From Candidatus Zixiibacteriota bacterium (GTDB lineage Bacteria; Zixibacteria; MSB-5A5; GN15; JAAZOE01): a stretch of DNA of 53,469 bases. Position 1 is the stretch's first letter, and the number at the start of each line of letters is the position of its first letter. The position numbers and the translations under genes are program-made. Shown here one piece after another: positions 33,498 to 38,847 of this stretch. The DNA lies in the NCBI GenBank assembly GCA_030668485.1, contig DAOUTW010000028.1, positions 1-53,469 on the forward strand. The letters run 5' to 3'. The notes under the pieces were generated by a model, which was not told the origin of the DNA, searched no databases, and saw only the letters and a list, made by a program, of their open reading frames with translations.

Positions 33498-34778
33498 TTA
33501 TTTGGCGCCGACTTTGTTTCTCAGCCACTCGATAGTGCTGGATTTCGGACGCTCGATCGGCTCGCCCCAGGCGCGAGAAACGACCAACTGCGAACACATA
33601 CCCATTGCACGTGAAACCGAGAAGAGGACGGTGTAATATTCGAATTCCTCAAGGCCGTACTTGTACAGCAGCGAGCCGGAACCGGCATCGACGTTCGGCC
33701 ATGGATCGGCAATTTTCTTAACTTGCTTCAAAACTCCGGGGACGACGTCAAAGACGCGGGCGACAGTCTGGAAAACCGGATCTTCGGCACAGTGCTCTTT
33801 ACCGAAAGCGAGGAAGGCATCGAAGCGCGGGTCGGTGATACGGAGAACGGCATGGCCGTATCCGGGAACCACTTTACCGGCCTTCAAAGTATCCCAGGCA
33901 AACTTTTCGAGCTGCTCTTTGCTGGGAGCGCCATCGAATTGTTTCATGACTTCGATGACCCACTTGAGGCATTCCTGATTGGCAAGGCCGTGCAGAGGGC
34001 CGGCCAGCCCGTTGAGACCGCCTGAGACGGCGTAGAACGGATCGGACAGGGCCGAACCGATGCAGTGACAGGCGTGAGCCGAAACGTTGCCACCTTCATG
34101 ATCGCAATGCAAGGTCAGGTAGAGGCGCATCAGTTTGGCGAAATTGCCGTCGGGATCGGGCAGACCCAGCATGTGGGCATAGTCCGCACCCCAGTCGAGG
34201 TTCGGATCGGAGGGGATAAGGTCACCCTTTTTGTAGCGAATGCGATAAACACCAGCCGCCAGTTCCGGCAGGACGGCCAGGATACGCATTGAATCTTCAA
34301 GAGTCGGTTCCCAGTAATCTTCCTTGCGCATACCTTCGGCATAACGGGCGCGGAATTTGGACTCGCCTTCCATCGCCAGAATGGCAGTATCGAGCATGCA
34401 CATCGGGTGGGCATCGGCAGGCATCGCTTTGAGAACTTTCCAGACATAATCCGGCACGCCGGCGTATTTTTTATACTCGGCCTGCAAATCCTTGATTTCG
34501 TCTTTGTTGGGAAGCTCGCCGGTGCAAAGCAGCCAGAAAATCTCTTCCGGCCATTTGTCGAAGAGTTCATTCAGCGGAATACCGCGGATAATGAGACCTT
34601 TTTCCGGGGGGACGTTAGAGGTGTCGCACACCATCGCCCGCACCCCGCGCATGCCGCCATAGACCTGTTTGAGTGTCACTTCCGACACGACATCTGCGCC
34701 ATGTTCCTTAATCAGGCTCTTAATATCCTCGCGCATTTTAGGAACCATCGCAGCAAACTTTTCTTTCAGTTTTGACAT
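33498..34778 (-). CDS. gltA: Citrate synthase, mitochondrial-like type
   Basis: It condenses acetyl-CoA with oxaloacetate, entering the TCA cycle. From ATG 34778 (GGAGG 5 nt upstream) it has 426 residues. Catalytic His263 (GPLHGLANQE), His309 (PGYGHAVLR) and Asp364 (NVDAGSG) are in place. GGMRG near the N terminus and the context of these motifs match the eukaryotic/Geobacter-like class rather than the hexameric NADH-sensitive E. coli type. A TTG 12 nt upstream overlaps the Shine-Dalgarno and is not the start. The promoter and a palindromic operator lie at 34840-34898. The neighbours pta and glcD fit acetyl-CoA and 2-hydroxyacid metabolism. Confidence 0.95.
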   Translation of the reverse strand: MSKLKEKFAAMVPKMREDIKSLIKEHGADVVSEVTLKQVYGGMRGVRAMVCDTSNVPPEKGLIIRGIPLNELFDKWPEEIFWLLCTGELPNKDEIKDLQAEYKKYAGVPDYVWKVLKAMPADAHPMCMLDTAILAMEGESKFRARYAEGMRKEDYWEPTLEDSMRILAVLPELAAGVYRIRYKKGDLIPSDPNLDWGADYAHMLGLPDPDGNFAKLMRLYLTLHCDHEGGNVSAHACHCIGSALSDPFYAVSGGLNGLAGPLHGLANQECLKWVIEVMKQFDGAPSKEQLEKFAWDTLKAGKVVPGYGHAVLRITDPRFDAFLAFGKEHCAEDPVFQTVARVFDVVPGVLKQVKKIADPWPNVDAGSGSLLYKYGLEEFEYYTVLFSVSRAMGMCSQLVVSRAWGEPIERPKSSTIEWLRNKVGAK

Positions 34779-34839
34779 GAAAACCTCCAAGAATATATTT
34801 TGGTTTTTCTGTTCTTCAATGAACCAAACCTTTCGCCCT

Positions 34840-34863
34840 CTAATGTGAAAATATTCACATTAG
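34840..34863. promoter_or_regulatory. Perfect 24-bp palindrome with a CRP/FNR-type core at the gltA transcription start
   Basis: Ten-base arms (34840-34849 and 34854-34863) surround a 4-nt centre. The core is TGTGA-AAATAT-TCACA (34844-34859), identical to the E. coli CRP consensus TGTGA-N6-TCACA. It lies just downstream of the predicted -10 box, covering about +1 to +24, a position expected for repression. The regulator is not in the window. Confidence 0.7.
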
Positions 34864-34869
34864 TCGCCT

Positions 34870-34898
34870 AATAAAGGAAAAATTCCTCTATTTGTCAA
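34870..34898 (-). promoter_or_regulatory. Promoter for citrate synthase
   Basis: On the - strand: TTGACA (34898-34893), a 17-nt spacer and TTTATT (34875-34870, 4 of 6). Predicted transcription start near 34863, leaving a leader of about 85 nt. Confidence 0.6.
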
Positions 34899-34936: not shown

Positions 34937-36292
34937 TCAGCGGAATATTTTGCCCGGATTGAGTATACCATCCGAGTCAAGGCATTTTTCGAGACGTCTC
35001 ATGAACCGTATGGTGGCCTTGTCGAATTCATGATGAAGATAGTCTTTTTTTGTTATGCCGATGCCGTGTTCGCCGGAAAGGGTGCCGCCCAGCGCCAGGG
35101 TTTTTTTGAAGAGGCGGTTGATTCCTTCGGCCGTTTCTTTCGATTCCCGATCGCTGCCGGTCTTACCGAGCAAATTGACATGCAGGTTACCATCGCCGGC
35201 GTGCCCGTAGCAATTGACCCGGAGGGATAAGTCGCGCCCCAGTTCCTCCACGAAAGCGACCAGTTGGGGCAGTTTTGACGGTGGCACGCAGACATCCTCG
35301 GATGTTTTAATTTTGGCCGTATTCTTGACGGCGTTTGACAGATTGCGGCGTGTTTTCCAGAGGATTTCTCGCTCTTTTGGCTCGTCCGTGGTGCGAAGCA
35401 TCAGGGGCGAATGGGTTTTGCATACCGACATAATCGCCTCCGCTTCATCTTCGGCGTTGATGCCGTCGGTCTCAAAGAGAAGCATGGCGGCGCCGCCTTC
35501 GATCCGGTTTTCGGGATCATATTGGTTGGAGCAGGCAATTGCATCGCCATCCATGAATTCCATGATACATGGGATAATACCGGCGGCAGTCACTTCAGCC
35601 ACCACCGAGGCGGCATCGACGGCGCGGCCAAAGGTTGCCTGGATGGTTTTACCCGGTTGGGGGAGGCCGATCAGGCGCAGGGTGATTTCGGTGAAGATAA
35701 ACAGGGTGCCTTCCGAGCCGATCATCAGATCGACCAGGCCATAAGGGGAGAGGTGATCGATTTCAACTATATCGCCCCGGGAATTGACGCCTCGGACGGC
35801 GAGGACATAGTCTTTGGTGACGCCGTACTTTTTGCATCTGAGGCCGCCGGCATTTTCGGCCAGGTTACCGCCGATGGTCGATTCTTCATAGCTGGCCGGG
35901 TCGGGCGGATAAAACAGGCCAACCGCCTCGGCTGCTTTCATGATGTCGCCGGTGATGGCGCCGGGCCCGACGACGGTCGCTTTCTTTTTCGAATCGATGG
36001 CGATGGCATTGAGGCGTTCCACCGAAACCAGCAACCCGCCATGAATGGCCAATGCGCCGCCGGAATAGCCGGTTCCGGCTCCTCGTACGATGAGAGGCAG
36101 ATCGAGGTCGCGGCACATTTTTACCGCAGCCACGATATCATTTTCGGATTCGGCGAAGAACAGGGCGTCAGGGTAATAGATAAGCTCGGTGGCGTCGCGA
36201 TTATAGTCAGGATACTTCTCCGGATCAAAAAAGACTCTTCCTTCCGGGAGAGCCTTTTCAATCGTTAACCTTTGAGTTTTTTCGAGCGCCAT
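34937..36292 (-). CDS. FAD-linked 2-hydroxyacid oxidase, GlcD-like
   Basis: This 451-residue flavoprotein belongs to the FAD_binding_4/FAD-oxidase C family (glycolate oxidase GlcD, D-lactate dehydrogenase). The FAD fold shows RGAGTGYSGGALA and TIGGNLAENAGGLRCKKYGVT. The C-terminal domain has CYGHAGDGNLHVNLLG and the ending GEHGIGITKKDYL..PGKIF. It is about the size of E. coli GlcD and lacks the Fe-S tail of the 18719 gene. AGGA lies 9 nt before the ATG, and the start is only 11 nt after the zinc-ribbon gene. Substrate undetermined; the electron partner may be a separate Fe-S protein. Confidence 0.88.
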   Translation of the reverse strand: MALEKTQRLTIEKALPEGRVFFDPEKYPDYNRDATELIYYPDALFFAESENDIVAAVKMCRDLDLPLIVRGAGTGYSGGALAIHGGLLVSVERLNAIAIDSKKKATVVGPGAITGDIMKAAEAVGLFYPPDPASYEESTIGGNLAENAGGLRCKKYGVTKDYVLAVRGVNSRGDIVEIDHLSPYGLVDLMIGSEGTLFIFTEITLRLIGLPQPGKTIQATFGRAVDAASVVAEVTAAGIIPCIMEFMDGDAIACSNQYDPENRIEGGAAMLLFETDGINAEDEAEAIMSVCKTHSPLMLRTTDEPKEREILWKTRRNLSNAVKNTAKIKTSEDVCVPPSKLPQLVAFVEELGRDLSLRVNCYGHAGDGNLHVNLLGKTGSDRESKETAEGINRLFKKTLALGGTLSGEHGIGITKKDYLHHEFDKATIRFMRRLEKCLDSDGILNPGKIFR

Positions 36293-37748: not shown

Positions 37749-38847
37749 TCAGTTATTATTGTGCCCTTGCGTTAGAAAGGCGTTTATGAACAGTTCCAGA
37801 TCGCCGTTCATGACCCGCTGAATATCGGCGGTGTGGACGTCGGTCCGGTGATCTTTGACCATATTGTATGGGTGGAAGATATAACTGCGAATCTGGCTTC
37901 CCCATTCGATCTTCTTCTTCGTGTCCGAGTATTTTTTCATCTCTTCCCGCTGTTCTTCACGGGCCTGCTGGTAAAGACGCGACCGCAGGACTCTCATGGC
38001 CGAGGCTTTATTCTTGTGCTGGCTCCGTTCCGACTGACACTGGACCACGATTCCGGTGGGGTTGTGGGTGATGCGAACCGCCGACGAAGTCTTATTGACA
38101 TGCTGGCCGCCGGCTCCCGAGGCGCGGTAGGTGTCGATACGGAGATCATCTTCGTTAATTTCGATATCGATATTGTCTTCGACTTCGGGGTAGACATGGA
38201 CGGAAACAAATGAAGTATGGCGGCGGCTGTTGGCATCGAATGGAGAGATGCGAACCAGCCGATGGACGCCCGACTCCGATTTGAGATAGCCGTAAACGTA
38301 TTCGCCGCGGATGGAGATGGTGGCCGATTTCAGCCCCGCCTCTTCGCCGGCCTGGTAGTCGATCAGATTGACTTTGAAACCCCGGATTTCGGCCCAGCGG
38401 TTGTACATTCGGAAAAGCATGTCGGCCCAGTCCTGAGATTCGGTACCGCCTGCGCCGGGATGAATGGTCAGGATGGCATTGCGAGTATCATCTTCGCCGG
38501 AGAGATAAGTGGATAGTTCGAAGTCGTCAAGAGTTTTGGCGAAGTCTTCCAGCCCCGCTTTGACCTCGGCCGCTTCGTCCGGGGTCTCGGCGGTTAATTC
38601 CGCCAGCTCGGTCAGATCATTGAGATCCGATTGAAGTTTCTCAAAATTGCCGACCCAGCGCTTGTGAGCTGACAACCGGCGCATGACTCCCTGAGCGTTT
38701 TCCTGGTCGTCCCAGAATCCGGGTTGAGCACTTTGCGCTTCAAGCTTGTTAATTTTTTCACGACGGGTATCGAGGTCAAAGGAACCTCCCGATTTTGGAA
38801 GTTCTTGTCGTCGATATCTTTATCAATTCTTTAAGATCATTATCCAT
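37749..38847 (-). CDS. prfB: Peptide chain release factor 2, with programmed +1 frameshift
   Basis: RF2 ends translation at UGA and UAA. The gene is in two frames. The first, from ATG 38847 (GAGGTGA upstream), gives 23 residues and meets an in-frame TGA at 38778-38776. A +1 shift at CTT TGA C leads into the main frame, beginning D-L-D-T-R-R at 38777. The total is 365 residues, the same length as E. coli RF2. The stop-recognition motif SPF and the catalytic GGQ (Gln248, in SGAGGQHVNK) are present. The upstream gene on this strand is none; pta follows 38 nt downstream. Reading it as a single frame from the Met at 38684 would lose about 54 residues. Confidence 0.96.
38776..38790 (-). promoter_or_regulatory. 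prfB autoregulatory frameshift site
   Basis: On the - strand the site reads GGGAGG-TTC-CTT-TGA-C. The internal Shine-Dalgarno-like GGGAGG sits 3 nt before the CTT slip codon, the same spacing as in E. coli prfB. Low RF2 leaves UGA unread and raises frameshifting, a feedback known in this family. Confidence 0.93.

Follow-up and report, generated by a model that had tools for sequence, protein, structure and literature searches.

A candidate Rex operator on the citrate synthase promoter of a Zixibacteriota genome, previously read as a CRP/FNR site

Rex proteins combine a winged helix with an NAD(H)-sensing domain of Rossmann type and are no relatives of the CRP/FNR superfamily. Characterised Rex proteins are bound to DNA at a low NADH/NAD+ ratio and released at high NADH (PMC5355995). 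The consensus of their operators (ROP) is given as TTGTGAANNNNTTCACAA, that is TTGTGAA-N4-TTCACAA (PMC5317091, PMC5355995), or in the form TTGTGAAW4TTCACAA (PMC2883068). In Staphylococcus, Streptomyces and others the targets include rex itself and genes of the nuo/hppA type, and both nuo and hppA are reported for Streptomyces avermitilis (PMC5355995). In Desulfovibrio vulgaris, Rex represses sat via a promoter site (mutant strain IR1and2; PMC7531388), and many sulfate-reduction genes of Desulfovibrio are coregulated by Rex (PMC4215793). In Caldithrix abyssi (Calditrichaeota) rex is the first gene of a [FeFe]-hydrogenase operon, and a candidate site, cTGTGAATCAATTCACAt, lies 38 bp before it; no link to gltA was found in the accessible part of that source (PMC5317091). 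Our literature search yielded no report of Rex in the phylum Zixibacteriota, and citrate synthase (gltA) was not found as a Rex target in the portions of text available. Somewhere in the 2012 work of Ravcheev, gltA could well figure as a Rex target.

The window analysed here, 53,469 nucleotides long, is one contig (C100) of a Candidatus Zixiibacteriota assembly of 4.5 Mb in 139 contigs. The features that concern the citrate synthase promoter are the following:

33498..34778, minus strand: gltA, citrate (Si)-synthase, likely starting at ATG 34778 (mechanical reading-frame start, TTG 34790)
34784..34788, minus strand: GGAGG ribosome-binding site of gltA, read from the sequence
34840..34863, no strand assigned: Rex-type operator, a candidate from sequence that is kept in 35 of 55 genomes; core 16-mer at 34844-34859
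34870..34875, minus strand: -10 hexamer TTTATT of the gltA promoter, with +1 at about 34863 from spacing
34893..34898, minus strand: -35 hexamer TTGACA of the gltA promoter, read from the sequence; the best promoter has this -35 in each of the 35 genomes with an exact site

The gene product matches PF00285 (E 7.2e-91) and the NCBIfam citrate (Si)-synthase model NF007128 (519.7 bits, cut-off 344), and its relatives on the nearest named contigs, with 76–84% identity, belong to Candidatus Zixiibacteriota or to a "FCB group bacterium". The ATG at 34778, served by the GGAGG, is likelier to be its start than the TTG at 34790. Upstream on the same strand lies a gene resembling glycolate oxidase subunit GlcD (34937-36292).

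The plus strand at 34840-34863 reads CTAATGTGAA-AATA-TTCACATTAG, and is, as the initial annotation had described it, a 24-bp repeat with 10-bp arms that contains TGTGA-N6-TCACA. Its designation as a perfect palindrome holds for the arms, which are exactly complementary over 10 bp, and fails for the 4-nt centre AATA, which is not self-palindromic. TGTGA-N6-TCACA is matched exactly at 34844-34859, the sole match in the window at up to one mismatch. Shuffled windows gave a mean of 0.81 matches at this threshold and at least one match in 53 of 100 shuffles, and a single match is unremarkable alone; the one at gltA is, however, exact. The same bases, TGTGAA-AATA-TTCACA with flanking A/T, form an exact Rex-operator inverted repeat. 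The 12-base core TGTGAA-N4-TTCACA is that of the Rex consensus in the literature (PMC5317091, PMC5355995), from which the gltA site departs only in the outermost bases, A...T in place of T...A; the two also share the 4-bp centre and the overlap with a promoter. Read on the minus strand, TTGACA (34898-34893) is followed by a 17-nt spacer, TTTATT (34875-34870) and 6 nt before the repeat begins, with 10 nt between the -10 hexamer and the 12-base core. The transcription start expected from this spacing, at about 34863, would be the first base of the repeat, which fits the earlier placement of the palindrome at +1 to +24 just downstream of TTGACA-N17-TTTATT. With +1 so placed, the site overlaps the predicted gltA promoter, as expected of a repressor operator. 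Farther along the window, a Rex-like site with two mismatches (TTGTTAATTTTTTCACGA, 38746-38763) lies between genes for a release factor and a metallo-beta-lactamase-fold protein.

A profile search of the same genome identified a single rex gene (C113:3112-3765). Its product combines the DNA-binding and NAD-binding domains of the family (PF06971, E 1.2e-19; PF02629), matches Rex structures in the PDB with E values down to 2.2e-48 and scores 263.7 bits against NCBIfam NF003995 (cut-off 126). The palindrome found at gltA recurs 36 bp before the rex start (TTGTGAAACAATTCACAT), compared with the 38 bp noted above for Caldithrix. As in an autoregulatory site, the core at rex is exact in this genome and, over the 30 of 57 rex upstream regions that were read, in 28, the other two having one and three mismatches, respectively. 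We consider it very likely, with a probability of about 0.9, that the gltA palindrome is an operator for this Rex, encoded elsewhere in the genome, which would repress gltA until NADH rises. As the initial annotation had stated, no such regulator is encoded in the window; the only Rex lies on C113 and the only CRP/FNR-type helix-turn-helix match on C54.

Conservation was assessed in 60 genomes comprising this genome and its order, of which 57 contain gltA and 57 Rex. Two of the 57 gltA upstream regions were dropped, one for a missing 5' end of the gene (G035) and one for a contig edge (G058). In the remaining 55, the 12-base core is exact in 35, has one mismatch in four, two in two and three or more in 14; the 39 regions with at most one mismatch compare with 0.06 in shuffles, which gave 0 exact cores and 0.64 at two mismatches. 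Conservation varies within the organism's own family, where the core is exact in two genomes (G000, G003), has one mismatch in G004, two in G001 and three or more in G002, G005 and G006. TTGACA is the -35 hexamer of the best promoter in each of the 35 exact-site regions; this promoter lies 7–16 bp upstream of the core in 34 of them and combines that gap with a 17-nt spacer in 33, the exceptions being G012 and G037 with spacers of 16 and, in G037, a gap of 24. The palindrome is conserved upstream of gltA in related genomes, and the repeat is, by sequence criteria, a real and conserved predicted operator. Among 80 named gltA loci (79 usable, overlapping with the 60 genomes) the exact core occurs in only 14, all of them from Zixiibacteriota or from records filed under FCB group, GN15, Ignavibacterium or "bacterium", and therefore the gltA link looks lineage-specific.

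The initial annotation had attributed the site to a CRP/FNR-superfamily protein. TGTGAA-N4-TTCACA contains TGTGA-N6-TCACA, and the gltA site thus includes the outer half-sites of a CRP operator; it illustrates how a Rex site can pass for a CRP site. A homologue of this superfamily, for which a search had been suggested, is indeed encoded in the genome (C54:25131-25799), with cNMP-binding and HTH_Crp_2 domains, the latter over its cut-off, and might be supposed to repress gltA through TGTGA-N6-TCACA. Given this homologue and the conservation at gltA, neither of the two findings by which the initial annotation would have stood refuted has turned up. The closest named model for this protein is FtrB, at 88 bits and far under the cut-off of 211. 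A CRP/FNR operator would have a centre that is free or T...A, the E. coli CRP consensus carrying T...A at the inner positions, whereas all 35 exact TGTGA-N6-TCACA matches upstream of gltA have A...T there beside their half-sites, even though the six centre bases were left free in the search. The pattern under constraint is the longer TGTGAA-N4-TTCACA, and the same site stands at rex. Moreover, the site is kept where such a protein is not detected: HTH_Crp_2 over the Pfam cut-off is absent from 14 of the 60 genomes. Thirteen of the 14 have a gltA upstream region, and in these the site is exact in five (G041, G044, G050, G055 and G059) and has one mismatch in two. G044 and G055 are single-contig assemblies, 96 and 95% complete. 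The distribution across genomes favours the CRP/FNR protein, if anything, since the exact gltA site is commoner with a CRP-type helix-turn-helix (30/42 versus 5/13; Fisher p 0.048, uncorrected for kinship), also under a stricter reading that leaves out weak matches in short frames (29/38 versus 6/17; p 0.006, likewise uncorrected). Nor does the gltA site closely follow Rex: 18 of 52 Rex-bearing genomes are without the exact site, which is present in one (G037, 66% complete) of the three genomes where no Rex was detected; another of the three has a single mismatch. Co-occurrence over the 55 genomes does not separate Rex from CRP and, uncorrected for kinship, leans if anything to CRP; we infer that the association reflects shared ancestry, for which no correction was applied. 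On account of the fixed inner A...T, the site at rex and its retention without a CRP-type helix-turn-helix, the CRP/FNR assignment was rejected, and control of gltA by the C54 product is highly improbable.

A compromise would have Rex as the main repressor and an HcpR-like CRP/FNR protein competing for the overlapping TGTGA half-sites. The HcpR of Desulfovibrio recognises a TTGTGA-N6-TCACAA-like motif, and in several genomes some sites near sat retain TGTGA and TCACA with one inner T lost (TTGTGAAAAAAGTCACAT); as no exact gltA site shows a relaxed inner base, such sharing appears rather unlikely at gltA. The repeat also lies at the predicted 5' end of the mRNA, where its 10-bp stem and 4-nt loop could form an RNA hairpin acting in stability or attenuation with no DNA operator involved. 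This is scarcely credible: the core is invariant and shows no covariation, just outside it A occupies position 0 in 32 of 35 regions and position 17 in 11 of 35, which often makes pairing of these two bases impossible, and the same sequence precedes rex and other genes. The hairpin was rejected for want of pairing outside the core.

Rex is therefore retained as the predicted regulator, that is, a known kind of switch re-assigned from CRP/FNR, and its interest lies mainly in the lineage and in the sign of control. The earlier idea that entry to the TCA cycle is tied to a global signal, by way of a repressor-type operator at the start of gltA, is supported. Besides the computed features, namely the site, its promoter position and conservation, the rex gene with its own site and a wider set of redox genes with the motif, we infer binding, repression and release by NADH from the characterised Rex proteins. 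At low NADH/NAD+ a Rex dimer on 34840-34863, over the transcription start, would block sigma-70-type transcription of gltA; at rising NADH, the repressor would bind it and leave the operator, and citrate synthase would be made. Through the same sequence rex would control itself, so that both genes would be kept down until NADH accumulates. For an uncultured phylum, this is a concrete predicted redox switch in which one NADH sensor would link entry to the TCA cycle with rex itself. It seems backwards, however, that high NADH should release gltA if the enzyme serves an oxidative TCA cycle that yields NADH, and this unexpected sign poses a physiological question. Conceivably, though we regard it as doubtful, citrate synthase of Zixibacteriota belongs to an electron-sink branch that Rex releases together with sulfate reduction and hydrogenase at high NADH, because the enzyme would feed a reductive or biosynthetic route, or even a citrate-cleaving one (reversed oxidative TCA), and not NADH-yielding respiration.

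In the own genome, TGTGA-N6-TCACA occurs exactly 13 times (0 in the reversed control), with A...T inside in four of the 13. The extended pattern WTGTGAAN4TTCACAW has three exact matches (reversed control, 0), at gltA, before rex and at C115:8034, and 77 with up to two mismatches (control, 12); over the 60 genomes there are 200 exact sites versus one in the control. The C115 site heads an operon (L271:3535-7999) like that of a NAD(P)-linked NiFe hydrogenase or sulfhydrogenase, with likeness to the beta, gamma and alpha subunits, all under the NCBIfam cut-offs. Sites with one or two mismatches adjoin sat, qmoC, dsrA, an HdrA-like pair, nuoA and the gene for H+-pyrophosphatase, as well as those for indolepyruvate oxidoreductase, aldehyde dehydrogenase, malic enzyme and thiolase. 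Together with the hydrogenase, the predicted sites at nuoA, H+-pyrophosphatase, sat, dsrA and qmoC are thus next to genes typical of Rex, and the occurrence of rex and nuo/hppA-type genes agrees with the targets listed for ROP. A few near-sites lie by non-obvious targets (a chloride channel, ArsR, glutathione peroxidase, carbamoyltransferase), and some of these are surely due to chance, because the control at up to two mismatches gives 12 against 77. In a partial survey of exact sites in relatives (50 loci, 10 proteins typed, many loci without a reading frame near the site), some typed neighbours are likewise non-obvious: an ABC transporter, RlmN and DUF1015.

Sat was found in 25 of the 60 genomes and dsrA in 26. 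Five genomes were dropped for sat, most with partial genes, and four for dsrA. In the 20 sat upstream regions that were read, a site within one mismatch is present in 14 and one within two mismatches in 19 (shuffles, 0.05 and 0.45), and 20 of 22 dsrA regions carry one within two mismatches (shuffles, 0.41); the genomes are related, and these counts are not independent. Most of the dsrA sites are a single imperfect repeat that recurs about 200 bp before the gene, and sat often has two Rex-type sites. The latter parallel the control of sat by Rex in D. vulgaris, a member of another phylum (PMC7531388); here dsrA, qmoC and gltA have sites too. On contig C57 of the own genome (L269:3122-6324, L270:2122-8747), sat, qmoC, dsrA-dsrB and two HdrA/Qmo-like genes lie within about 26 kb, a stretch that also holds seven Rex-type sites, each with one or two mismatches. 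The organism is a predicted sulfate reducer, and this pathway may be a Rex regulon; in members that have the pathway, the same NADH sensor would also link sat, qmoC and dsrA. On C54 of the own genome, an octaheme-type cytochrome c gene is closely preceded by a one-mismatch site (L272:1580-3517). In one relative (G032, contig C3, L268:1201-1678), four exact Rex-type palindromes, three of them identical, are found within about 480 bp.
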